Part shown: piece after piece, positions 30,925-43,682 of the stretch | How positions within the stretch are numbered: the first letter of the stretch is position 1 | Layout of the letters: the number at the start of each line of letters is the position of its first letter | DNA from: Thiolapillus brandeum | GTDB taxonomy: Bacteria; Pseudomonadota; Gammaproteobacteria; Chromatiales; Chromatiaceae | Length of the DNA: 64,000 nt | Assembly: GCF_000828615.1 (NCBI RefSeq) | Contig: NZ_AP012273.1 | Span: 2,108,001 to 2,172,000, forward strand | Reading direction: 5' to 3' | Program-made: the position numbers and the translations under genes | Notes under the pieces: model-generated | The model's input: the letters and a program-made list of their open reading frames with translations, nothing else | Told to the model about the DNA's origin: nothing | Database searches by the model: none

Positions 30925-32700
30925 CTATATCCCGATCTTCTTGTAGATGACCTTCCCTTCTTTCACTGTGGCCAGCACTTCGTTGTCCTTGATCTCGGAG
31001 ACCTTTTGCTTGACGGGATTGTTCTTGATCACCACGAAGTCAGCCAGCATGCCTTCCCTGATCTTTCCCTTGCGGTCTTCTTCAAATACCTGCCAGGCTG
31101 GCCCTGTGGTCAACGCCTGCAGAGCCGTGTAAGCATCCACTCTTTGATCCGGGCCAATGATTTGTCCGCTGCGGGATTCCCTGGCCATGGCAGACCAGAT
31201 TACCCAAAAAGGATCGAGCGGTGTGACATTGAAGTCCGTATGGTTGGACATGACCAGACCGGCAGCTTTGGCAGCTTTCATGGGTGAAATGAAAAAGGCC
31301 GCTTCCTTGCCGATATTCTTCACATGCACATCTCCCCAATAGAAGGTATGCAGAGTGAAATAGGATGGCGTCAGGCCCAGCTCCACATATTTGGGCAAGT
31401 GCTCCGGGCGCTGGAACTGGGAATGAACGATCACCGTGCGCCGGTCATCCTTGGCGCTGATACCTGCCGCCTCGATGGTCTTGATCATCATGTCGATGGC
31501 ACCATCGCCATTGGCATGGACATGCAACGGGATATTCGCATCGAACATCTTCCTGGTGATGGCATCCAGTTGCGCCTGGGTGATGGAAGACTCGCCTTTC
31601 CAGTCCTTTTGTCCCGCCGGGCCACCGCCGTGATAGGGATGGGAAACCAGGGCTGTTTTGCCTTGAGGTGAACCATCAATGGTTATCTTGCAGGCCTGGA
31701 GTTTCAGGTGGTTATGGTATTCACCAAACTTGTATTTGGGGTTACCGAACCACTTGTCCATCTCGGTAAAGCCGGGCAAGGCGAGAATATCCAGAAACAA
31801 GCGCTCCTGGGCTGCTGCTTTCATCAGGAAATCCAGGTCTTCGGCATGAGAGAAACCTTCGATGGCCTGGGTGTAGCCGTTGCTGGCATACATCATCTGC
31901 GCGGGCTTGGTCAGGTCCAGCATTTCTTCTTCACTGGGTTGAGGCAGCTTGGCGAATACAGGAATATAAGCCATTTCCATTAGCAGGCCGGCAGGTTCGT
32001 TACTGCCCGGCATGCGTGCAATGACGCCCCCTGCCGGGGTTTTGGTGTTGGCGTCGATTCCCGCCCATTTCAGTGCCTGGGAATTGAGTACCGCGCCGTG
32101 CATGGAAACATGGATCAGCATTACCTTGCGCTTGGGGAAAGCCGCATCCAGATCCTTTTTGGTGATATGACGCTTTTCTTCAATGAGATCCTGGTCATAG
32201 CCCCAACCAATGATCCAGCCGTCTTCCGCGATATGCTTTTCTTCCTGGAAAGCCTTCAGCTTTTCAATAATCTGAGGAATACTGGTAGCTGTACCCACGG
32301 GAGGCGCGGCCACGTTCACCTGGTTCACCATTCGCACTGCCGACATGAAATGGCTGTGAGGATCGAGGAAACCCGGCAGCATGGTGTTGCCCTTGAGATC
32401 GATGAGCCGTGCGTTGCTGCCGAATTTTTTGATGGCGGCTTTCTTGTCACCAACGAAAACGATTTTCTTTCCCTGGGTCACAACGGCTTCGGCATAACTC
32501 GGCACATCGCCGTCCATGGTGAGAATATCGCCACCATAATAGATAACGGATGCCGGTTGCCGTGGCACCACCTCGACCTTGTATATTTCACCGGTTCCCG
32601 GCAGGTAGATTTCCTTTTCCATGGCGCTGGCGCCCGATGTGAACAGCAGCAGGCTTGTCAACGCCCACAAGGTTTTATAGATGACATGATTAAAATGCAT
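30925..32700 (-). CDS. Exported amidohydrolase, YtcJ-like (metal-dependent)
   Basis: The 591-residue product has a signal peptide (KTLWALTSLLLFTSGASA) and an amidohydrolase (TIM-barrel) fold of the YtcJ type. Visible are the first metal motif LPGFLDPHSHF, the N-terminal strand segment YYGGDILTMDGDVPSYAEAV, HVHANGDGAIDMM, VIVHSQFQRPEH, the Asp in MSNHTDFNVTPLDPFW and the C-terminal GMLADFVVIKNNP. Substrate is unknown. It is the last gene of a four-gene operon, 41 bases after the second amidohydrolase (32742-34826), with which it shares domain order but low identity. A periplasmic location is inferred. Confidence 0.88.
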   Translation of the reverse strand: MHFNHVIYKTLWALTSLLLFTSGASAMEKEIYLPGTGEIYKVEVVPRQPASVIYYGGDILTMDGDVPSYAEAVVTQGKKIVFVGDKKAAIKKFGSNARLIDLKGNTMLPGFLDPHSHFMSAVRMVNQVNVAAPPVGTATSIPQIIEKLKAFQEEKHIAEDGWIIGWGYDQDLIEEKRHITKKDLDAAFPKRKVMLIHVSMHGAVLNSQALKWAGIDANTKTPAGGVIARMPGSNEPAGLLMEMAYIPVFAKLPQPSEEEMLDLTKPAQMMYASNGYTQAIEGFSHAEDLDFLMKAAAQERLFLDILALPGFTEMDKWFGNPKYKFGEYHNHLKLQACKITIDGSPQGKTALVSHPYHGGGPAGQKDWKGESSITQAQLDAITRKMFDANIPLHVHANGDGAIDMMIKTIEAAGISAKDDRRTVIVHSQFQRPEHLPKYVELGLTPSYFTLHTFYWGDVHVKNIGKEAAFFISPMKAAKAAGLVMSNHTDFNVTPLDPFWVIWSAMARESRSGQIIGPDQRVDAYTALQALTTGPAWQVFEEDRKGKIREGMLADFVVIKNNPVKQKVSEIKDNEVLATVKEGKVIYKKIGI

Positions 32701-32741: not shown

Positions 32742-34826
32742 TCAGTTGTTGCAGAACTGATCAAAAGCTTCCCTGGTGTTGTCGAATTTCTCCTTTTTGG
32801 CCAATTCCCAAGGTCGCTCACACTGTCCGGTCTTCGCACACCAGCGATAACCGGCAGAACCGATACAGCCGTTTGCGTCCTTGTCCGCTCCCGCCAGCTT
32901 CCCTTTGTTGATGATCATTTTCCCTTTATACACGATGCCGTAAACAGGAATATCCTTGATTTCAAGGGGATCGATTTTGAACGGATTTTTCTCCAACAGG
33001 GTGAAAGTCGCGTCTTTGCCGACCTTGATAGATCCGATTTGCTGCTCCATCTCGAAGGTATGGGCTGCGGTGATGGTTATCCCCTTGATGGCATCATAGA
33101 CCGAAATGCGCTCTTCAGGCTTGACGACCCGGCCACTATCGACCGTGCGGGTGGCCGCCACCCAGGCCAGCATCAGCGGCTCGGCCGGCGCCATGGCGAA
33201 GTCTGAATGCAGGGATACGGGGATATTGCGCTGTGTAAATTCCTTGAGCGCGACCATATTCTCAGCACGCTCCTTGCCCAGGCCCGTTTCACTGTACTTC
33301 TCCGCCAGGGCCCATAGATAGTAGGGATTGGCTGAGATCTCCACACCGAGGTCGGCGGCTCTTTGCGCCTGACTGGCATCGAACAGGCCCACGTGGTGGA
33401 AGGTCGTCCGGTGATCCTTTCTCGGGTGGCGTTTCATGGCCCGCTTCACGATGTCGAGGTAGGTCTCGAAGGCCTTGTCACCGGTGATATGGATGTGGAT
33501 CTTGTAGCCCTGATCCCACCAATAATTGAAGATGGCCTCCCCTTCCTTGGGCGGGATGATCCATTCGGCCTTGCAGTTGCTGCAGTTATAGAAGGGTTCT
33601 CTCAGTTCCAGTGCCAGGGAATAGATGGCGCCGTCTGCAAAGGTCTTGTACTGGTTCGGCAGGAACTTGATGTAATCGGTGTTGTATTTGCCGGGCAGTT
33701 CCTCGATGTGTTTCTTGTAGGCATCGTTGCCCATTTTCTTGACAAACTGTTCGGGGAATCCGGACATCAGATAGACCGTATAGGATCGGGCCTTCTCGGT
33801 TCCATACTGGAGTACCGAGTATTCGTCTTCAAAACTGCCGGTTGGAAATCCTGGCTCCATCATGGCAGTCAGACCGTTTTGCAGCATCATCGTGGACATG
33901 CGGTCGATACCGCGTTTGAGCATCTCCCGATCACCGAAGAATGATATGAGCTTGTTGCCCTTGACCACCTGATAGGCACGCTCCCAGAAATGCAGGTTGT
34001 CCCAGTCCGCCTGTTCCTCATCCTCTTTGCTGAGGATACCTTTCCTGACGTCATACTTTTTGGCAGCGGCGCTGTTCAGATAGATCTCATGGGTTGAACG
34101 CTGCCAGATGATGGTGGGAACATCCCCGGTCACCTTGTTCAGATCCTTGAGGGTCAGATCCCCATGCCAGGATTTGTGGTACCCCCAGATCAGCACGGTT
34201 TTGCTCTTGTCCTGCTTGGCATCGATGATTGCTTTCACTGCCTTGAGGTAGTTGTCTTTACCGGTTACTCCCGGATAGGTTTTTTGCGGCATTCTCCAGG
34301 CATGGGGCGCGACGATGTCATTGGCAAGAATGATGGCGCCAATGCCGACCGGATGAGCATGGGGTTCGATGAAGCCTGGCAGCAGGGTCTTGCCCTTGAG
34401 ATCCACCTTGATGGTCTTGCCAGCGAAATTGTTGACCGCGGAGGCTTTCGGTCCCGCGTAGATGATCTTTCCATTCCGTTCCATGACCGCTTCCACATAG
34501 GTGGGCTGATCGCCTTCCATGGTGATGATGTCGCCACCGTAATAGAGAGTTTGCTCCAACTTGCCGGGGGAAATCTCTTTCACTTTCTTTGTCTCCGTAC
34601 TTTGTGCAGCACTACTACCCAGACTAACCGCCAATGCGGCAAACATGATTGTTTTTCTTAAGGAGCCTCTGATTAAGTCTGGACGAAGTAGATTGTGAAT
34701 CAGAATGTTCAGATTCAAGGCGCAAATCGCACGTAATAGCTGGCTATTGCGAAGATTTGCAACGTAGAAGCTGGGCATTCTGGGCGCAAGATACGAGTTC
34801 ATGACTAAATCAGAGGCTCCTAACAT
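32742..34826 (-). CDS. Amidohydrolase, YtcJ-like, with a MITE inserted after its start codon
   Basis: The frame has the amidohydrolase motifs LPGFIEPHAHPVG, HIHITGDKAFETYLD, TFHHVGLFDASQ, LHSDFAMAPAEPLML and GSIKVGKDATFTLLEKNP. The C-terminus carries a Cys-rich motif NGCIGSAGYRWCAKTGQCER. The ATG at 34826 (after AGGGAAATTACA) is followed by a 159-bp inverted-repeat element in frame, then by LRKTIMFAALAVSLGSSAAQ, a signal peptide now about 54 residues inside. Removing the insert and one duplicated TTA codon gives M-LRKTIMFAALAVSLG, a normal export start. Today's start may be the inner ATG at 34646. Substrate unknown; neighbours suggest a secreted pathway. Confidence 0.85.
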   Translation of the reverse strand: MLGASDLVMNSYLAPRMPSFYVANLRNSQLLRAICALNLNILIHNLLRPDLIRGSLRKTIMFAALAVSLGSSAAQSTETKKVKEISPGKLEQTLYYGGDIITMEGDQPTYVEAVMERNGKIIYAGPKASAVNNFAGKTIKVDLKGKTLLPGFIEPHAHPVGIGAIILANDIVAPHAWRMPQKTYPGVTGKDNYLKAVKAIIDAKQDKSKTVLIWGYHKSWHGDLTLKDLNKVTGDVPTIIWQRSTHEIYLNSAAAKKYDVRKGILSKEDEEQADWDNLHFWERAYQVVKGNKLISFFGDREMLKRGIDRMSTMMLQNGLTAMMEPGFPTGSFEDEYSVLQYGTEKARSYTVYLMSGFPEQFVKKMGNDAYKKHIEELPGKYNTDYIKFLPNQYKTFADGAIYSLALELREPFYNCSNCKAEWIIPPKEGEAIFNYWWDQGYKIHIHITGDKAFETYLDIVKRAMKRHPRKDHRTTFHHVGLFDASQAQRAADLGVEISANPYYLWALAEKYSETGLGKERAENMVALKEFTQRNIPVSLHSDFAMAPAEPLMLAWVAATRTVDSGRVVKPEERISVYDAIKGITITAAHTFEMEQQIGSIKVGKDATFTLLEKNPFKIDPLEIKDIPVYGIVYKGKMIINKGKLAGADKDANGCIGSAGYRWCAKTGQCERPWELAKKEKFDNTREAFDQFCNN
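34662..34820. mobile_element. Family D MITE inside an amidohydrolase gene
   Basis: The 159-bp element has terminal inverted repeats GGAGCCTCTGATTAAGTC / GACTAAATCAGAGGCTCC and a 3-bp duplication TAA on the plus strand (34659-34661 and 34821-34823). It encodes no protein of its own but is an open frame when read with the host gene. A 3-bp TNA-type duplication suggests mobilisation by an IS5-group transposase (inference). No second copy was noticed in this window. Confidence 0.85.
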
Positions 34827-34836
34827 TGTAATTTCC

Positions 34837-35745
34837 CTATAAATTGCCAAACGGGTTTTTAATGATGAAGTTGGCCTGCAACATAAACGTCCCCTCTGGT
34901 CGGATATTGTCAGGTGAGACAATGGGATACTGGTATTCAGCCATTAACATGACAGGCATGGGGCCCAGTTTGAACATTTTTCCAACCCCGATCGCAAGGG
35001 GCAGGGTGAGCTTGTTGCCGCTACCGGCTTCCCAATCCACGGTAATGTTTGGGCTGGCACGCAGCTGCCAGGCATTGGGAAGATGGCGAATAATGAAATA
35101 CTGAAGATTGGTATGATTCAGGTCTCTGTTGTGAGCCGCCTCGATAAAGGGATCATCATCAGATTTGCCGTCGTCGGCAAATCCCCACCAGTGCTGCAGA
35201 TGCCCACCGATCATCCAGTCTTCGTTTGCCCATAATGCCAGTGCTGTTGGACCCGCCTGGTACTGGTGAGAGCCCAAAAGGTCATTGTTCGAAGTCGGAA
35301 AGATAAATGTGGCGCCCAGCCCCCACGACCAGCCAAGCTGATTGGCTACGCCAATGCCGATGGGTAATATGGTATCCCCAATTTCCGCACTACTATTCAG
35401 GCCTACGCCAATTGGCTGAGAGGGTGTACCTCCGGTTATTCCAATATCTGTGGGACCATCGATATAAGTAATTACCGGGCGGGCGAAAAAGGTATATTTT
35501 TCTCCCATCGGGATCGGCAGGACTGGTTGAAAAAGCCCGGTCTTGATGGATTCACTGCCATCTACCAGGTCTCCGCCTATCTTTGTGTAATTGTATTGAA
35601 AGGAAAGATTCCATATCTGGGCCAGCGGGTTGGCGATTTCTTTGCTCAGCTCTTCCATGCTTTTCGATTCATCAGCAAGCACAACGCCTTGCCATTGACA
35701 CAAAATGCACAATATCCACAAAGGACCAAGTATTATCTTTTTCAT
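34837..35745 (-). CDS. Outer-membrane channel-like protein (transporter family often mislabelled neuromedin U)
   Basis: The 302-residue product has a signal peptide (IILGPLWILCILCQWQGVVLA) and then a beta-rich pattern with an initial ELSKEIANPLAQIWNLSFQY, FQPVLPIPMGEKYTFFARPV, GWSWGLGATFIFPTSNNDLL, YQAGPTALALW and the WNLGNL-type aromatic end (IKNPFGNL). This fits a family of putative outer-membrane barrels with no proven substrate. It overlaps the giant gene by 4 bases (ATGA at 35742-35745) and the amidohydrolase starts 10 bases after its stop, so all are one operon. Confidence 0.78.
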   Translation of the reverse strand: MKKIILGPLWILCILCQWQGVVLADESKSMEELSKEIANPLAQIWNLSFQYNYTKIGGDLVDGSESIKTGLFQPVLPIPMGEKYTFFARPVITYIDGPTDIGITGGTPSQPIGVGLNSSAEIGDTILPIGIGVANQLGWSWGLGATFIFPTSNNDLLGSHQYQAGPTALALWANEDWMIGGHLQHWWGFADDGKSDDDPFIEAAHNRDLNHTNLQYFIIRHLPNAWQLRASPNITVDWEAGSGNKLTLPLAIGVGKMFKLGPMPVMLMAEYQYPIVSPDNIRPEGTFMLQANFIIKNPFGNL

Positions 35746-38700
35746 CGTTTCTTCCTTGTAGGGTTGTTCATTAGTGCTATCAACGACAGATACAGTATCC
35801 CAAGCATCAACAATAATATATTCAAGCGGCCAACAGCAGGAATAGCTGCCGGCGCAGGCGCTGCCACCACAGGCGTCGTCTCGTCAGAAAAATTGTCTTG
35901 TGGATAAAGATCAGGGCCATCGGCGCCATCGTCGGTGATATGTGCCTGATTGAATAAGGTATTCGTCAAATCAAAGGCATTCCAATCAACAATGACTGCA
36001 AAAGTGACGCTACCTGAGGCGCCTGCCGGCAAATTCCCGATAGCCAGTGTACAGGCGGTACCCGCTGGACTGTTGTCCGGACATGACCAGATGTTGGGCT
36101 GACTGTCACTGGCTGAAAAATGCGTATGATCAGGCACGGTTTCTTCAATCACCACGCCACTCGCATCCGCTATGCCCACATTGCTGTAGTTCAGAGTGTA
36201 GACCAGTTTCCGTCCGGGCGTTGCCGATACACCTCCATCACTTTTGTGCAATTGCAAGTCCATGCCCAAAAGCAGGGGCGTATCATCTGACGCAGTGGCG
36301 CGTTGTTTGAGTACTGAATTGTTGCCATCATCTTCAATCAAGATATCGTTATGGACCGAAGACACGCTACTGGGCACAACGGATTTCAGGGTCAGCCCGA
36401 ATTCCACAGTATAGACAATGCCTACTGGAAGATCCCCCTGAAGATAGGTGCAGACTGTTCCCGCAGGATCACCATCATTACAGCTCCAGCCCGGCGTGCT
36501 GAGACTGGCATTGAATTGTGTGTAATCAGGAACCACATCGGTCAGCACCACACCAGTAGCATTCTGCGCACCTGAATTTTCATAGGTGAGTGTATAAGCC
36601 CAGGACTGCCCCGGTTGAATGGAAACACCTCCGTCATCCTTGGCAATCTCCAGGCGAGGCTCGGCGAACAGCAGAGGGGTCTTGTCGCTGTCCGTATCCG
36701 TTGATTGAACGCCACCACTACTGCTTCCGTCTTCGCTGATGAAGGCAGTGTTTTCAATGGTGTCAACGCCAGCCGGTAGGGAGGCATCGACATTGAGGGC
36801 AAAAATAGCCTGGCCGCCCTGCCCTCCAATCAATCCACCAACCGTATATTCACACAAGGTTCCGGCAGCGGCTCCATCGGTACAACTCCAACCCGGAGAA
36901 CTATTGCCGGCATCAAAGGTTGTATATGCCGGCACATGATCCTGGATCACTACGCCCATGGCATTCTGGTTGCCTTTATTGCCATAGTTCAGGTAATAGC
37001 GAAGTACCTGTCCAGGTGCTGCAATGGCATAATGATCACCCTTGGTGATTTGCATAATCGGGTCGGCAAGGATGGGTACCACCGTAGGATCATCTTCAGT
37101 GGAAGTTGCCGGATCATCTGACACAATGGCTGTGAACTGATCCGTATCCACAATCGCCTGGTTGAGCAACTGCTCCGCAGTGCGCGCCGGGTATGGGTTG
37201 GGAATCCTGACGTGGTAGCTCATGACAACGGAATCGCCTGCCCCTATGGATGGGAAGTGAACCTCGATATCCGTGTCGCCCGGAACATTGCCTTTCACTA
37301 CGGTGCCACTGCCACTGGTGATAGCTACATCCGCCAGGAATTCACCAATGGGATCCGGGATATCCGTCAGAACCACATGGGTCGCTTCGCTCGCGCCGTT
37401 GTTGATGATCGTCAGGGTGTAGGTCACCAAGTCATCCGGCAGTACAGGGTTGTGGCCGGAAGGTTCTGACCAGGCCTTGAGTACATCCAGCAAAGGCAAG
37501 GACAGGTTATCGCTGCCATTGGTGCTGACCTGACGCTGATGGGGCGCGCCAGTACCAGGCAGGCTATCAGCGGTTGCTATGGCAGTGTTTGGAATTGTGG
37601 ATGGATCCGGTGCTTGTCCGGTTGCCATCAGTTTCATACTGAAGCGCAATTCCAGCGACTCTCCGGGCATCAATACCTGGTCTGGCGCAGGCAGGTAGGG
37701 GTTTCCTTTCAGTCGCATGCTGACCGTGGTCAGCCCATTTGCCGAGTTGTCCACCACTTCAAATCCCGGAGGGACATCGATGGCGGTGAAGCTGCCGGCC
37801 ATCCACAGGGATTCATCAAACACATCTGTAATCTGAACATCGAAATCCGGCGCCGTACCGGTATTGGTTGCGATCAGATGAATGCTGGCGACACCATCCA
37901 CCAGAGACTCGAACTGCTTTTCGAGTTTCAAGCCCGGCTCTACCAGTTGAATACGATCGATGGAGACATGGGGACCGGTGCTGCCGGTAAAATCCAGTTC
38001 TGCTTCATTGGTCAAAACCGTACCATCGACATTGGCAGGCACGTCAATGACCCGTGCAGTCACCTGGATTGTAACGGTGTCATCGCCGTCATAAACAGCA
38101 TCGTTACCACTGTTGGTTACATCGCCGAAATCGAAGCGGGCGGTATCGTTCCAACCATTTCCGGAGGCATCGGACAAAACCGCTGTTCCCGCCTGCGTGG
38201 ATGACAGGTTGTTCCCCAGATTGATCACCTGGGCGTCAAGAATCTCCAACACACCCGCCGCATCCGATTGCGCGCGATCCGTCAAAACAACATTGCGTGT
38301 CGTACCTTCGGCGATCACTGCCTTGACGTAATAGGTCACCCGTTCGCCGATGGTCACTTCGGAACTTCCGGAGGTCTCGGATACGCTGCTGGAGAAGTAA
38401 TTCTTGTTCACTGCTCCCTGAGTAAAGGAGACAAGGGCGGCCTGCCCGGTCCGGTTGCCCATACGGGATTCCGATGAGCCAGGCGCGGATTCCCAGTCCA
38501 ACTCAGCCTGATTGACAAAGATGCCAGGTACGGGCAGGCCAGCCATCGATTGAACATCATATTCAATGCTGCATTGCCCCTGGATACGCGACAGCGTACC
38601 AATATCGAATGTGACTGTCGGCAGCGCTGAAGTGTCCGTACTCAGACTGGGACAATCGGTGCTCACATTGCCAGCCCAGGTGGTTTCGCTGGGCAATATA

Positions 38701-41700
38701 TCCATGACGCGGGTGTTCAATGCCGCCGCGGTTGATCCTGCACGGTGTTTGACCACCAGTTTGAAGCGCTGGGTCTTGCCCGGTGAGGTATATCCTACCC
38801 TGGCGCCACTGGTGAGGGTCTTCTTCATTTCCAGTAGCGGCTCCAGCAGACCGAATTTGGTACTGGCATAAAGCGGATCGGAAAAATCACTGCTGGTCAT
38901 GCGCGCCTTGTTGCGCAGATCATTATCTGCTCCTGGCATGCCGCTGTTTTGCGGGTTATCCAGAACGATAGCCACGACTTCAAAGCGTATCTGATCTTCC
39001 GCATCGCCAGCGGGACGGCTGTCCGGTTGATTGATGATGTCTCCCAGGTTCCATTGGGCCATGTCCCGTATGCCATCTGGATTACCGGAACAATTGGGCA
39101 GGCAGGCATCCCCTGCGTCACCCACGGCTGCACCCGTGACGCTCAAATCAGCCCCGATATGGGTGATCCGGGAAGACAGCTGTTTCAGGCGTACGCCATT
39201 TGCCGGCAACCTGTCAAATACCGAAACCACGTGAGTGGTGCCGTCCTGGAAATCAGCGATGATTTCAAAAGTCACCTGCTCACCAATGGTCAGGCCAGTG
39301 TAATTGCTGCCAGGCACCAGATCGGTTTCCGGAATATCAGTATCAATAATGTGCTTGCTCAAACCAGGTTTGCTGATGGTGATATCCCAATGCGATAAGC
39401 CGCTGTAATCACGATCATCGTTATCAGGTGCCGTGGGCGGATAATTGGGATCAAGAGAATGCCACGCCAGACTGGCGTCATTTCTGATGATTTCGCCTGC
39501 GCTGGCAGTGATATCGACTTTGGCCTGGAATAGGATGTCACATTGTTTACCCAAAGGAAAAACAGCCCAGAAGGCAGAGAGTTCGTTGCTTCCTTCGCTT
39601 GGCCCGGTGGTGGGGAGCTGGGTGCAACTGCCCAGAACCACGCTGCCAGGAACCAGGCTCAGATCCGCAGGTAAAATATCCTGCAGTGAAACACTGAAGG
39701 CATCAGATCGGGAATCTGAAAGATGGCTCACATGCAGCGTATAGGTTGCGGTATCGCCTGCTTCCATTTCCGAGCGGTCAGCGCTCTTGGAAATGGACAG
39801 CAGCGGTTCGACCAGTTCAACACCTTGCCTGGCGGTACCTTTGAGTCCGCTGTCTGGTGAACCCCAGGAGACTACTACTACATTGTCATCCATTTTATTG
39901 TTGACATTGATTCCCAGATCCTTGACTCGCGCTCTGACCTCCAGCCAGATCTGGCTGCCTGGGCTGATGCCGTCGCCACCGGCATTGACGACATCACCAA
40001 AATCAAAGCTCAAGGTATCATTGATCGAGTCTGACAGATAATTGTCGCTGAGGGTAACCGTTGGTTTTCCGGCGGGTATGACCAAGTCACTGCCCAGTTG
40101 AACCACCTGCCAGTCCAAAGCCTCCAGAATCACCTGGTCGTGGGGCAAAGTATCAACAACCAGTAACTGGTCGGCGTTACTGGCTGGCACGGTAACCGTC
40201 AGGCGGAAAGTGATTTCTTCGCCGATGGTAAGAGGCTCGTGACCCGGCTGGGTGGAAATGCCATCCGTGTGGGGTTGAGAAGTGCTTTGAGTAAACTTGT
40301 TGGCCGAGACATTATTGACATTGAAATCGTCGCAGTCCTCGGTCGCGTAGGTGTTGGCTGAACCCCCTGTGTCAGTGAACAATCCGGTGCGTTCCGCTCC
40401 GAGAATGTTGTTGGGTGGGGTTGCCAGGGGTTGATCATTATCTGACAGGCTTTCCCAGATGCCGCGCGCGCAGTTGGTATAGATGTCACCTGCAGCAGGA
40501 ATGGTAGTAAATTGCATGTCGAATTCGATGGTGCAATCACTGCCAAGAGGGAAACTGCTCCAGGTGGCGCTCATTTCGTCTTCCAGCACTCCCTGAGAAA
40601 CCTGCAGTGAATCAGGTGCCAGATTACAATTACCCGCCACCACTGTAGCATTCCCAATAATGTTTCCATTGGCGGTAGGTACGAGATCAGAAAGCTGGAT
40701 ATCAAAGGCATCTGCCGTGGAATCCCCGGCATGCTGCAAGCGGACCGAGACCGTGCTGATAGTGTTCAGGTCGCCATGATCGGGACTGAATTGTTTGGTG
40801 ATCTTCAGCTGGGGTTCTACCAATGTAAGCCTGGCCGCGCGGGCGCTGGCTTCCGGGCGCTGTGCATTGGGTTTCAACCAGGACCACTTGGCAAGATTCT
40901 GACGCTGGTCTGTATTGAGGTTTCCGCTCCAGTTGATGACCCGCGTAACGTAGACCAGTGAAATGGTATCGTCATGCAGGTTGTCCGTGTCGGTGTTGGT
41001 AATAGTGCCAAAATCACTGTTCAGGCGGCGATCAGGAGCAGACAAGCCACTACCTTCAGGAGAAAAAGTACTGTTGCTCAGCACAGCGCCAAAACCTCCG
41101 GGTACATCGGTGGTAATGCCCGCGGTGGGTGTGATGGACTGGAATTGAACGAAAGCCAGACCCTCATCCAGCAAATCGTTGAACAGAACCTGTGGGCTTT
41201 GTCCTTCGGGAACATGAACCGTTACACGATAGGTCACCAGTTCCCCGATATGAGCGTGATGATTTTGGCTGGAATACCCGGGTTGAATGTCGATTATCTC
41301 CTTGTTCACTACTGGACGGGCAATCTGTACGAAGGCTTCCGCTTCCTTTCTCGGGGGCTGACTGGAGCTCCCGGCAGGCGTGGACGTCCAGCTGACTGCG
41401 GCCTTATTAATGATTTTTTGCGAGGGGAAGACATCTCCCGCCACCTGGCAATACAGATGCACAATGGCCGTATCCGCACCAAAGGGAGCTCCCAGGCCAT
41501 TGTTTGGAGCCAATGGGTTATCCAGATGAATGCCGGTGGTGATGTTCCCGGTATAGGTCAGGGCAGATCCCGTTCCATCCGTAACGGCGATAGGAGTAGC
41601 ATTACATGTCAGCCCGGCAACGCCGGGATCTGAAATGACCACATTGTAGGCATTTTGGCCACCCACATTTTCCACATTGATGACAAATTCAACGAGGTCT

Positions 41701-43682
41701 GCCGCATCGGCTCCAGTGACATCACCGGTGACATAGTCGCTGATTGCCGATACCGGAGGGGGCGGCTGAATTTGGGCATTGGCGTTATCGATGGCAAACA
41801 CACCCTTGGTAATATTCAGTACCGGCGCCCCCACATTGAAGCCTGCTGCGTTGGAACCACCATCGATATGATCACCATCGCTGTTCTCGTAACCGGATGT
41901 CATTACATTGGTCAGGAACAGGTTGTCGGCAAAGGGTTCCGCGGTAATAGTCGCCTGGATATCGACTGTCAGAGTAACAGGCGTTGGTGAAGTGATATCG
42001 CCCCAATCGAATGTGATCGAATTGGCCGCCACATCGGTAGTGACAGCGGGAGTAGGCCCGGAAATCACAGTAATATCATTGATCAGGTCGATATCACTGA
42101 CAAAAACAACGGGTAATGGCAGTTGATCCACAAACTGGACATTTTTTGAACTGCCTGCAGGCACTTGCATAGAGAGGCGGAAGGTCAGGCTGTCACCCGC
42201 TGCAAATTCAGCCGGCAAGGGATCAGGTGCTTGAATCGTTTTCTCTGGCGTGTTTTCAACGATTTCGGCGGGGGCGGTAGAATCATTGTTGCCACTGCCT
42301 CCGGCATGCAGGTCGTAGTCCAGGTTGATATGGTTGCTCAAAACATCTCCTGCGGAAACAGGAGAGCCGTCTGCGTACTGGGTATCCACGCGAACGCTGT
42401 ATTTGAGTGTACCCTGGGCTCCCGTACGCAATCTCCCGACTGCGGCACTGATATCCCAGTTGACTTGGGTGGTGCCAGGTGCCGGACCAGGCTGTTGTGA
42501 TTCGCTGATGGCATGTGGATTGCCATTTATGATGAGTGCGTCGGTACTGACAAAAGTCATGCCATCCGGTACCACATCTTCCAGATTGAAAGCCGTGGCG
42601 CCCTGAAGCAGGCCGGAAGGATAGTCAGTGGTCTGAAAATCGATCGTATATTGCAGGGTATCGCCCGGGAGTGGGTTGGCATTGTCAACACGCTTCTGTA
42701 CCGCCGCGTGCACGGCGAGCACCTGGCTGTCTGCAGTATCCGAGTGATCGAGCCCCTCGTACTTGTAATCCACTTTCAGGGTGTTGGTGATTACCTGGCT
42801 GTCAGGAATGGTTTCATCCAGTATGTCACTGATATAGACCGGCAGACTCACTGTCAGGTCTGCGGTGGCGCTTGTACCCGTGACTGAATCACAGGTCACC
42901 GTCATGGTGCCCCCAGGCAGTGGCGGCAAGTTGGGAGCAGGAGCAACCGCCTGGCAATTGACGCCTGTGGGTGCGTTGACAGTTACTGGTGTGCCGGTCC
43001 ATTGAATTTGAGGTGGCAGGATATCGGTGAGTTGGATGTCCGTGACCAGGGCGGCATCCGAGATATCCATTGTATAGGTGTAAGAAAAGGGATTGCTGGG
43101 GCCTGGGGGACGTTCATTTTCCGGAGCAGTATTTTCCTTGTTCACCCTGGCGATAATGGGCGTGACCGTACTATTGATGGGAGTCCCGGTTACGGGGCCA
43201 TTGTCCCCGGTAGCGGTATCCCCAAACTCGAAACCTGGCAGTATTTCAATCGGCAATGGCTGGTTGATAGTCGCTCCCACCTGGAAGGACAGACAGAAAT
43301 CCATATTCAGGGCTGCTTGCCCCTGAACCACAGAGCCTACAGGATAGCGTACCAGCCAACCGGTTCCTCCCGGTTCCCCACTGACAACCGCACCCGATAT
43401 GGGATCGACGATCTGTCCACTGCCATCTATAGCGCCTATATTCTGGATGGTTGGAGGGATGTCCACGAACCGGGCATCAGTCACATCGACCAAAGGTGGC
43501 ATAGTCACAAAAAAATACGGCCCATAACCGGGGGTGGCATGGGTGTTGGTAAAGGACACCTGGCTACAATATTGTTCGCCAATCAGCATCTCAGCCGGGA
43601 GGCCGGCAACTGAAATCGTGGGAATCTGGGCAAATGACAGGTTGATATAAAAGGAGAGCAGTAGTGCGGGAATCAGACGCAT
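35742..43682 (-). CDS. Giant DUF11-type repeat surface protein (2646 residues)
   Basis: A signal peptide (MRLIPALLLSFYINLSFA) is followed by many Ig-like beta domains of the DUF11/isopeptide type, roughly 110-220 residues each. Their recurring pieces are GDTATYTLHVSH, VSLQDILPADLS and INNGASEATHVVLTDIPD. The last three repeats each carry a cysteine pair (WSC.DG..AGT.C). The C-terminus is IPAVGR, a hydrophobic helix (LNILLLMLGILYLSLIAL) and a basic tail NNPTRKKR, like an IPTLS-CTERM-type sorting signal. An adhesin, stalk or matrix role at the cell surface is inferred. It is the first gene of the operon. Confidence 0.88.
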   Translation of the reverse strand: MRLIPALLLSFYINLSFAQIPTISVAGLPAEMLIGEQYCSQVSFTNTHATPGYGPYFFVTMPPLVDVTDARFVDIPPTIQNIGAIDGSGQIVDPISGAVVSGEPGGTGWLVRYPVGSVVQGQAALNMDFCLSFQVGATINQPLPIEILPGFEFGDTATGDNGPVTGTPINSTVTPIIARVNKENTAPENERPPGPSNPFSYTYTMDISDAALVTDIQLTDILPPQIQWTGTPVTVNAPTGVNCQAVAPAPNLPPLPGGTMTVTCDSVTGTSATADLTVSLPVYISDILDETIPDSQVITNTLKVDYKYEGLDHSDTADSQVLAVHAAVQKRVDNANPLPGDTLQYTIDFQTTDYPSGLLQGATAFNLEDVVPDGMTFVSTDALIINGNPHAISESQQPGPAPGTTQVNWDISAAVGRLRTGAQGTLKYSVRVDTQYADGSPVSAGDVLSNHINLDYDLHAGGSGNNDSTAPAEIVENTPEKTIQAPDPLPAEFAAGDSLTFRLSMQVPAGSSKNVQFVDQLPLPVVFVSDIDLINDITVISGPTPAVTTDVAANSITFDWGDITSPTPVTLTVDIQATITAEPFADNLFLTNVMTSGYENSDGDHIDGGSNAAGFNVGAPVLNITKGVFAIDNANAQIQPPPPVSAISDYVTGDVTGADAADLVEFVINVENVGGQNAYNVVISDPGVAGLTCNATPIAVTDGTGSALTYTGNITTGIHLDNPLAPNNGLGAPFGADTAIVHLYCQVAGDVFPSQKIINKAAVSWTSTPAGSSSQPPRKEAEAFVQIARPVVNKEIIDIQPGYSSQNHHAHIGELVTYRVTVHVPEGQSPQVLFNDLLDEGLAFVQFQSITPTAGITTDVPGGFGAVLSNSTFSPEGSGLSAPDRRLNSDFGTITNTDTDNLHDDTISLVYVTRVINWSGNLNTDQRQNLAKWSWLKPNAQRPEASARAARLTLVEPQLKITKQFSPDHGDLNTISTVSVRLQHAGDSTADAFDIQLSDLVPTANGNIIGNATVVAGNCNLAPDSLQVSQGVLEDEMSATWSSFPLGSDCTIEFDMQFTTIPAAGDIYTNCARGIWESLSDNDQPLATPPNNILGAERTGLFTDTGGSANTYATEDCDDFNVNNVSANKFTQSTSQPHTDGISTQPGHEPLTIGEEITFRLTVTVPASNADQLLVVDTLPHDQVILEALDWQVVQLGSDLVIPAGKPTVTLSDNYLSDSINDTLSFDFGDVVNAGGDGISPGSQIWLEVRARVKDLGINVNNKMDDNVVVVSWGSPDSGLKGTARQGVELVEPLLSISKSADRSEMEAGDTATYTLHVSHLSDSRSDAFSVSLQDILPADLSLVPGSVVLGSCTQLPTTGPSEGSNELSAFWAVFPLGKQCDILFQAKVDITASAGEIIRNDASLAWHSLDPNYPPTAPDNDDRDYSGLSHWDITISKPGLSKHIIDTDIPETDLVPGSNYTGLTIGEQVTFEIIADFQDGTTHVVSVFDRLPANGVRLKQLSSRITHIGADLSVTGAAVGDAGDACLPNCSGNPDGIRDMAQWNLGDIINQPDSRPAGDAEDQIRFEVVAIVLDNPQNSGMPGADNDLRNKARMTSSDFSDPLYASTKFGLLEPLLEMKKTLTSGARVGYTSPGKTQRFKLVVKHRAGSTAAALNTRVMDILPSETTWAGNVSTDCPSLSTDTSALPTVTFDIGTLSRIQGQCSIEYDVQSMAGLPVPGIFVNQAELDWESAPGSSESRMGNRTGQAALVSFTQGAVNKNYFSSSVSETSGSSEVTIGERVTYYVKAVIAEGTTRNVVLTDRAQSDAAGVLEILDAQVINLGNNLSSTQAGTAVLSDASGNGWNDTARFDFGDVTNSGNDAVYDGDDTVTIQVTARVIDVPANVDGTVLTNEAELDFTGSTGPHVSIDRIQLVEPGLKLEKQFESLVDGVASIHLIATNTGTAPDFDVQITDVFDESLWMAGSFTAIDVPPGFEVVDNSANGLTTVSMRLKGNPYLPAPDQVLMPGESLELRFSMKLMATGQAPDPSTIPNTAIATADSLPGTGAPHQRQVSTNGSDNLSLPLLDVLKAWSEPSGHNPVLPDDLVTYTLTIINNGASEATHVVLTDIPDPIGEFLADVAITSGSGTVVKGNVPGDTDIEVHFPSIGAGDSVVMSYHVRIPNPYPARTAEQLLNQAIVDTDQFTAIVSDDPATSTEDDPTVVPILADPIMQITKGDHYAIAAPGQVLRYYLNYGNKGNQNAMGVVIQDHVPAYTTFDAGNSSPGWSCTDGAAAGTLCEYTVGGLIGGQGGQAIFALNVDASLPAGVDTIENTAFISEDGSSSGGVQSTDTDSDKTPLLFAEPRLEIAKDDGGVSIQPGQSWAYTLTYENSGAQNATGVVLTDVVPDYTQFNASLSTPGWSCNDGDPAGTVCTYLQGDLPVGIVYTVEFGLTLKSVVPSSVSSVHNDILIEDDGNNSVLKQRATASDDTPLLLGMDLQLHKSDGGVSATPGRKLVYTLNYSNVGIADASGVVIEETVPDHTHFSASDSQPNIWSCPDNSPAGTACTLAIGNLPAGASGSVTFAVIVDWNAFDLTNTLFNQAHITDDGADGPDLYPQDNFSDETTPVVAAPAPAAIPAVGRLNILLLMLGILYLSLIALMNNPTRKKR

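Follow-up and report, generated by a model that had tools for sequence, protein, structure and literature searches.

A 159-bp MITE in frame between the start codon and the signal peptide of an amidohydrolase gene in Thiolapillus brandeum

In-frame fusions between MITEs and genes are already known in other bacteria. The enterobacterial elements RU-1, RU-2 and RU-3 are described by Delihas (2007, PMC2759123) as short MITE-like repeats that carry an open frame and are fused in frame to genes; a part of the signal peptide predicted for the exported protein YPO1552 comes from RU-2. The Rickettsia palindromic elements (RPEs), as presented in a review (PMC10969869), are palindromes of about 150 bp that lie in frame in genes and give rise to fusion proteins, and nearly half of those first reported are located in ORFs. 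In the gammaproteobacterium Coxiella, QMITEs are described as lengthening functional proteins, and at enhC an indel that differs between strains determines whether the QMITE is read (PMC5896051). The locus that we describe here is a tidy further example of such a fusion.

The element lies at 34662-34820 of the window, the 64,000-nucleotide stretch of the T. brandeum genome that was analysed. It is contained in a minus-strand ORF of 694 codons (32742-34826, with the ATG at 34826-34824) that has neither a stop nor a frameshift. The encoded protein of 694 aa matches Amidohydro_3 (PF07969) over residues 141-637 (3.2e-48; 165.8 bits against a cut-off of 29.7). The columns that are invariant in our alignment include HAH 156-158, H444, H446, H477, H478 and D542, which we take to be metal-ligand motifs. 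Read along the minus strand, the ATG at 34826 is followed by TTA, then by the element and then by TTA AGA AAA ACA ATC ATG TTT. The insert sits after codon 2 and before the signal peptide, whose original region (RKTIMFAALAVSLGSSAAQS; 34599-34658, minus strand) makes up residues 57-76 of the fused protein. Its 159 bp are 53 codons of the gene, all open and in frame right after the start codon, as the original prediction had stated. When the insert is cut out, the joined flanks give MLRKTIMFAALAVSLGSSAAQ; the predicted reading of an ATG followed by a signal peptide was correct, and the orthologues begin with ordinary signal-peptide-like N-termini.

Compared with the described systems, the amidohydrolase MITE resembles the RU repeats of PMC2759123 in being a short repeat with an open frame fused to a gene, although both the element and the host are different; RU-2 supplies a part of the signal peptide, whereas the present MITE precedes a complete, pre-existing one. 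It shares with the RPEs, as they are reviewed in PMC10969869, the palindromic structure, the length of about 150 bp and the in-frame fusion. The QMITE extension described for enhC is C-terminal (PMC5896051), in contrast to the N-terminal extension seen here.

The gene directly upstream encodes 302 aa (34837-35745, minus strand) and ends 10 nt before ATG 34826. It scores 21.9 bits against Phenol_MetA_deg, just under the curated cut-off of 22, and its start is overlapped by 4 nt by the end of a gene for a repetitive, exported-looking protein of 2646 aa (35742-43682, minus strand). Directly downstream of the host gene there is a second Amidohydro_3 gene (30925-32700, minus strand; 591 aa, about 28% identical), which has a signal-peptide-like N-terminus of its own.

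An inverted-repeat search located the terminal inverted repeats of the element at 34662-34679 (GGAGCCTCTGATTAAGTC, plus strand) and 34803-34820 (GGAGCCTCTGATTTAGTC, minus strand), within 19-nt arms (34661-34679 and 34803-34821) that are 95% complementary. With up to three mismatches allowed, the window contains three occurrences of the pattern of the element ends, where 0.22 would be expected by chance, and two of these three are the ends of the element itself. Folded alone, the element strand forms one long hairpin of -60.4 kcal/mol (z = -7.8 against shuffles), and in its sequence context the hairpin has a z of -3.9. The host genome gave 35 matches at E <= 0.001, a count that includes second strands or parts of one same copy, and the three siblings that span the whole query are 91-93% identical to it. 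In the relatives search the element was found in 16 of 38 genomes, the host genome included, and in 13 of the 15 genomes of the host genus. A wider sample of the host's taxonomic family contained it in 30 of 146 genomes and 13 of 61 genera (E <= 1e-12), with copies in another genus reaching 94% identity.

The family analyses rest on a pool of 106 distinct copies, each with both ends and 140 to 175 bp long in total. Copies lacking a recognisable end pair were not included, and a few rows of the pool represent one insertion shared by sister genomes. The commonest lengths are 159 bp (49 copies) and 160 bp (40 copies). The 53-codon translation of the amidohydrolase element had no match in Pfam, and a 55-residue translation had none among the PHROGs. 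The element is short and without a transposase gene, and it has terminal inverted repeats, dispersed copies and a target-site duplication. The sequence at 34662-34820, predicted to be a MITE, is a full-length member of a multi-copy MITE family.

No parent insertion sequence was found in the transposase loci and end matches that we checked, and no transposase was linked to the element. None of 31 loci with PF01609 transposases in 10 genomes (L088-L092 and L229-L254, a part of all matches) carried element ends with a duplication; in L234 and L242, which are one region of G007, loosely similar ends are separated by 1409 bp and have no duplication. PF13340 transposases were found in none of 15 genomes. 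Unpaired ends in one genome turned out to belong to another, sister MITE subfamily. Such a sister subfamily (L255-L260) is present in G064, a genome of the taxonomic family, and combines the same 18-bp end with a different body; the end matches in G064 total 56 forward and 53 reverse. In the host genome a shortened MITE copy (L028) lies about 760 bp from L091, one of two places with PF01609 transposases (456-codon frames), and no MITE-like ends with a duplication were seen around this transposase.

The original prediction had proposed a comparison with relatives, and this revealed the site without the insert. We collected 25 orthologous or related loci from named public genomes and read the N-termini of 19, the other six being distant or cut. 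The MITE peptide was present in none of the 19. At L101, from an uncultured member of the Desulfobulbaceae, the end of the same upstream gene is followed by a short, similar spacer and then by ATGTTA at the junction, and the window aligns with this locus on both sides of the insert. All seven orthologues in the protein alignment lack the extension and start directly at the signal-peptide region. They are 67-78% identical, so the empty site is not a conspecific one. An insert-free site is also a point of difference from the RU fusions as PMC2759123 describes them.

Within the taxonomic family the amidohydrolase is sporadic, being found in 3 of 209 other genomes (E <= 1e-150), and the locus from one of these three (L262) has no insert. 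The close relatives of the protein come from Desulfobulbaceae and a Draconibacterium bin. This distribution suggests horizontal transfer of the gene (32742-34658). One of the orthologues, L108 from a Desulfocapsa bin, is apparently frame-shifted, with 8 stops read in one frame.

The target site of this copy departs from that of its family by one base. TTAA is found at 34658-34661, on the low-coordinate side, which is downstream for the gene, and TAA at 34821-34823, at the high-coordinate end, where the usual 4-bp duplication lacks one base. The TAA predicted on both sides is there in the sequence, and it is the exception in this family. Among the 106 pooled copies 59 have a duplication of 4 bp, six have one of 3 bp (the amidohydrolase copy included) and 41 have none, which makes 4 bp the usual length in 59 of the 65 copies with a duplication. 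In the host genome 11 of the 17 other copies with both ends have a 4-bp duplication and none has one of 3 bp. The duplicated targets are commonly TTAA, TTAG, CTAA or CTAG, with TTTG, TTTA, CTTG, TAAA and CAAG also present in the pool. IS5-type mobilisation has a YTAR target and a 4-bp duplication. The base missing from the high-coordinate side means that the gene reads the element in its frame +0, and the assembled reading of the junction is GGCTCC-TAACATTG. From the sequence and the family rule we deduce that a 4-bp TTAA duplication would give ATG TTA AGG AGC CTC TGA, a stop at codon 6; it follows that either a 3-bp event or the loss of one base brought the element into frame.

Frame +0 is open in 40 of the 49 copies of 159 bp and the other five frames in 0, 0, 0, 12 and 1, although these copies were collected by similarity to the amidohydrolase copy, which biases them toward this open frame, and some of them represent one insertion that sister genomes share. 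The 160-bp copies are open in +0 in 2 of 40 cases and in +1, the frame that matches at the far end, in 5 of 40. An open frame through the element, as known from the RPEs, is a feature of most 159-bp copies that the 160-bp copies do not share. The open frame belongs mostly to the element itself and is no evidence of adaptation at the amidohydrolase locus; given this and the documented fusions, an ORF-preserving MITE is less unusual than had been predicted. Codon 5 of the element reads TTA in the amidohydrolase copy and TAA in its three closest siblings in the host genome. We considered this stop-removing substitution as a possible adaptation and did not count it as selected, as TTA, CAA or CTA also occurs in other copies. 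In the simplest account, the ancestral element had an ORF by chance, the junction deviates by one base, and selection acts on the host gene. The in-frame outcome is then most simply seen as a chance insertion that passed selection for a functional gene, not as a designed change of targeting.

We then asked whether the frame bears a coding signature, using 40 of the 48 distinct 159-bp copies; the 8 with an ungapped identity of 70% or less to the amidohydrolase copy were left out. No signature of a conserved MITE peptide was found in these copies, pN/pS being 0.83 in the gene frame, similar to the other frames (0.77-0.84), and the codon-position entropies of the 159-bp copies are near equal (0.59, 0.59 and 0.56). 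The same 40 copies contain 7 stops against 20.4 in a neutral tree simulation; as few stops were seen in 5% of the simulations and as many open copies in 8%, a marginal depletion. In column shuffles 0 of 500 were as low for the gene frame, and since two other frames were likewise extreme (0.002 and 0) we attribute this to linkage. Conservation of the element peptide was rejected on the flat pN/pS, the near-equal entropies and the marginal stop depletion.

We searched the pool for further fusions. An ORF that spans the whole element plus at least 30 codons before it or 60 beyond it is present at 22 of the 106 copies, and a Pfam scan of the 21 other than the amidohydrolase ORF left 20 without a match. 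The sole match, an EF-Tu-type GTPase domain at L205, begins well after the element, and the probable start of that gene, judged by eye, lies downstream of it. Pfam matches were also absent from six ORFs that end inside the element and from the small ORFs across partial or truncated copies (L018, L022, L025, L027 and L028). The amidohydrolase copy is thus the only in-frame fusion with a recognisable gene found among the 106 copies by this test of an ORF through the element plus Pfam, which misses genes without a Pfam domain and in which 18 copies have less than 400 bp of flank on one side. The repeated in-frame insertion into genes that marks the RPEs was accordingly not seen, with 1 of 106 copies. 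It is very improbable, in our estimate, that selection has kept the fixed codon-multiple length and the stop-free frame of the 159-bp subfamily, on the grounds that its copies persist within genes or at their starts. If it had, the subfamily would be an independent counterpart of the RPEs in another lineage, and at the present locus a copy would have become a long N-region of a signal peptide.

To the question of what the fusion does to the protein, the account that we favour, at slightly better than an even chance, is that the MITE transposed in, the native ATG is used, the extended precursor is exported and the MITE peptide is removed. Comparison with the orthologues shows that the 159-bp MITE was inserted by transposition at a TTAA site that overlaps codons 2-3 of the amidohydrolase gene. 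The 3-bp duplication may have arisen through an exceptional event or the later loss of one base; together with the open frame of most 159-bp copies, it keeps a single ORF running from the native ATG. ATG 34826 most likely remains the start of translation, which would yield a 694-residue precursor with 53 MITE-encoded residues before the unchanged signal peptide; the protein probably begins with 54 extra residues. The signal peptide would most probably still direct Sec export and be cleaved off together with the MITE peptide, leaving the mature enzyme unchanged, which would explain why the insert is tolerated.

It is rather unlikely that targeting has changed, with the 54 extra residues blocking Sec recognition and leaving the enzyme cytoplasmic or anchored in the membrane by a MITE-encoded stretch. 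In the fused precursor 61 residues with a net charge of +5 precede the h-region core, and the MITE encodes a second hydrophobic stretch (AICALNLNILIHNLL) of similar mean hydropathy (1.66 vs 1.81 for the h-region), which could disturb topology. However, neither the signal peptide nor its positively charged flank has changed, the h-region is intact, and PMC2805444 describes autotransporter signal sequences in bacteria that are longer than 50 residues and have extended N-regions with positive charge. With an intact signal peptide, and with long N-regions in other Sec signals, loss of export is not implied, and the predicted switch to the cytoplasm is unproven. By analogy with these long signals, the protein may well still be exported and lose the extension together with the signal peptide.

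A start inside or after the element that bypasses the native ATG is unlikely, even though two ATGs are in frame. The ATG at 34800-34802 (minus strand), codon 9 of the fusion, has TAGGAGC 13 nt upstream (-6.5 kcal/mol), but this spacing is long and the codon lies within the hairpin, with a mean unpaired probability of 0.18 against 0.59 predicted for the native ATG. The ATG at 34644-34646 (minus strand), where the original prediction placed re-initiation, has almost no Shine-Dalgarno (SD) pairing (-1.4 kcal/mol). The native ATG is preceded at 6 nt by the Shine-Dalgarno-like TATAGGGAA (34833-34841, minus strand; -5.9 kcal/mol), which shares bases with the upstream gene's stop codon; the position of the ATG 10 nt after that stop would favour coupling. 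Because of the stronger pairing than at 34646, and the poor spacing and hairpin at 34802, initiation would be favoured at ATG 34826, and from these predicted values it appears likelier than re-initiation at 34646.

The ribosome-binding site predicted upstream is present at the native ATG, but it is clearly weaker than in 5 of the 12 orthologues compared (L101, L107, L108, L100 and L093; -8.7 to -11.9 kcal/mol). It is about as weak in L095, L094, L102, L098 and L110 (-5.0 to -6.1) and weaker in L096 and L097. The predicted hairpin begins two nucleotides after the ATG codon. A hairpin so close to a start codon probably reduces initiation, and this one may lower translation and yield. The branch of the host protein is about double the length of that of its sister L093 (0.18 vs 0.09), and private replacements at otherwise invariant columns number 11 in the host protein, 3 in L093, 10 in L094 and 27 in L103; the longer branch and these replacements could indicate some relaxation of the gene. 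It is possible to read the weaker SD, the hairpin and the longer branch as signs of a young pseudogene that is being silenced and whose open frame is coincidental. We regard this as quite improbable, since the 694 codons have no stop or frameshift, the conserved motifs are retained and pN is low (0.13-0.20 vs a pS of 0.67-0.88 in pairs of the window gene and an orthologue), although these distances include time before the insertion, which most of the divergence may predate. An assembly error that conceals a 4-bp duplication and an out-of-frame native ATG is highly improbable, as the genome sequence is nearly complete, with 3 contigs and a completeness of 100, and 3 bp recurs in five further copies from other genomes, even if 4 bp is the length in 59 of 65 duplications and none of the 11 of other host-genome copies is 3 bp.

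What is distinctive at the amidohydrolase locus, compared with the known fusions, is the clear orthologous empty site and the anomaly in the duplication that decides the frame. It offers a clean natural example of a MITE able to lengthen a protein without destroying it, and shows that whether an insertion yields a fusion or a knock-out can hinge on a single base of the target duplication. In a position before a cleavable signal peptide the extra peptide may cost little, and the locus could serve to test what length of N-region is accepted by Sec in the host lineage.
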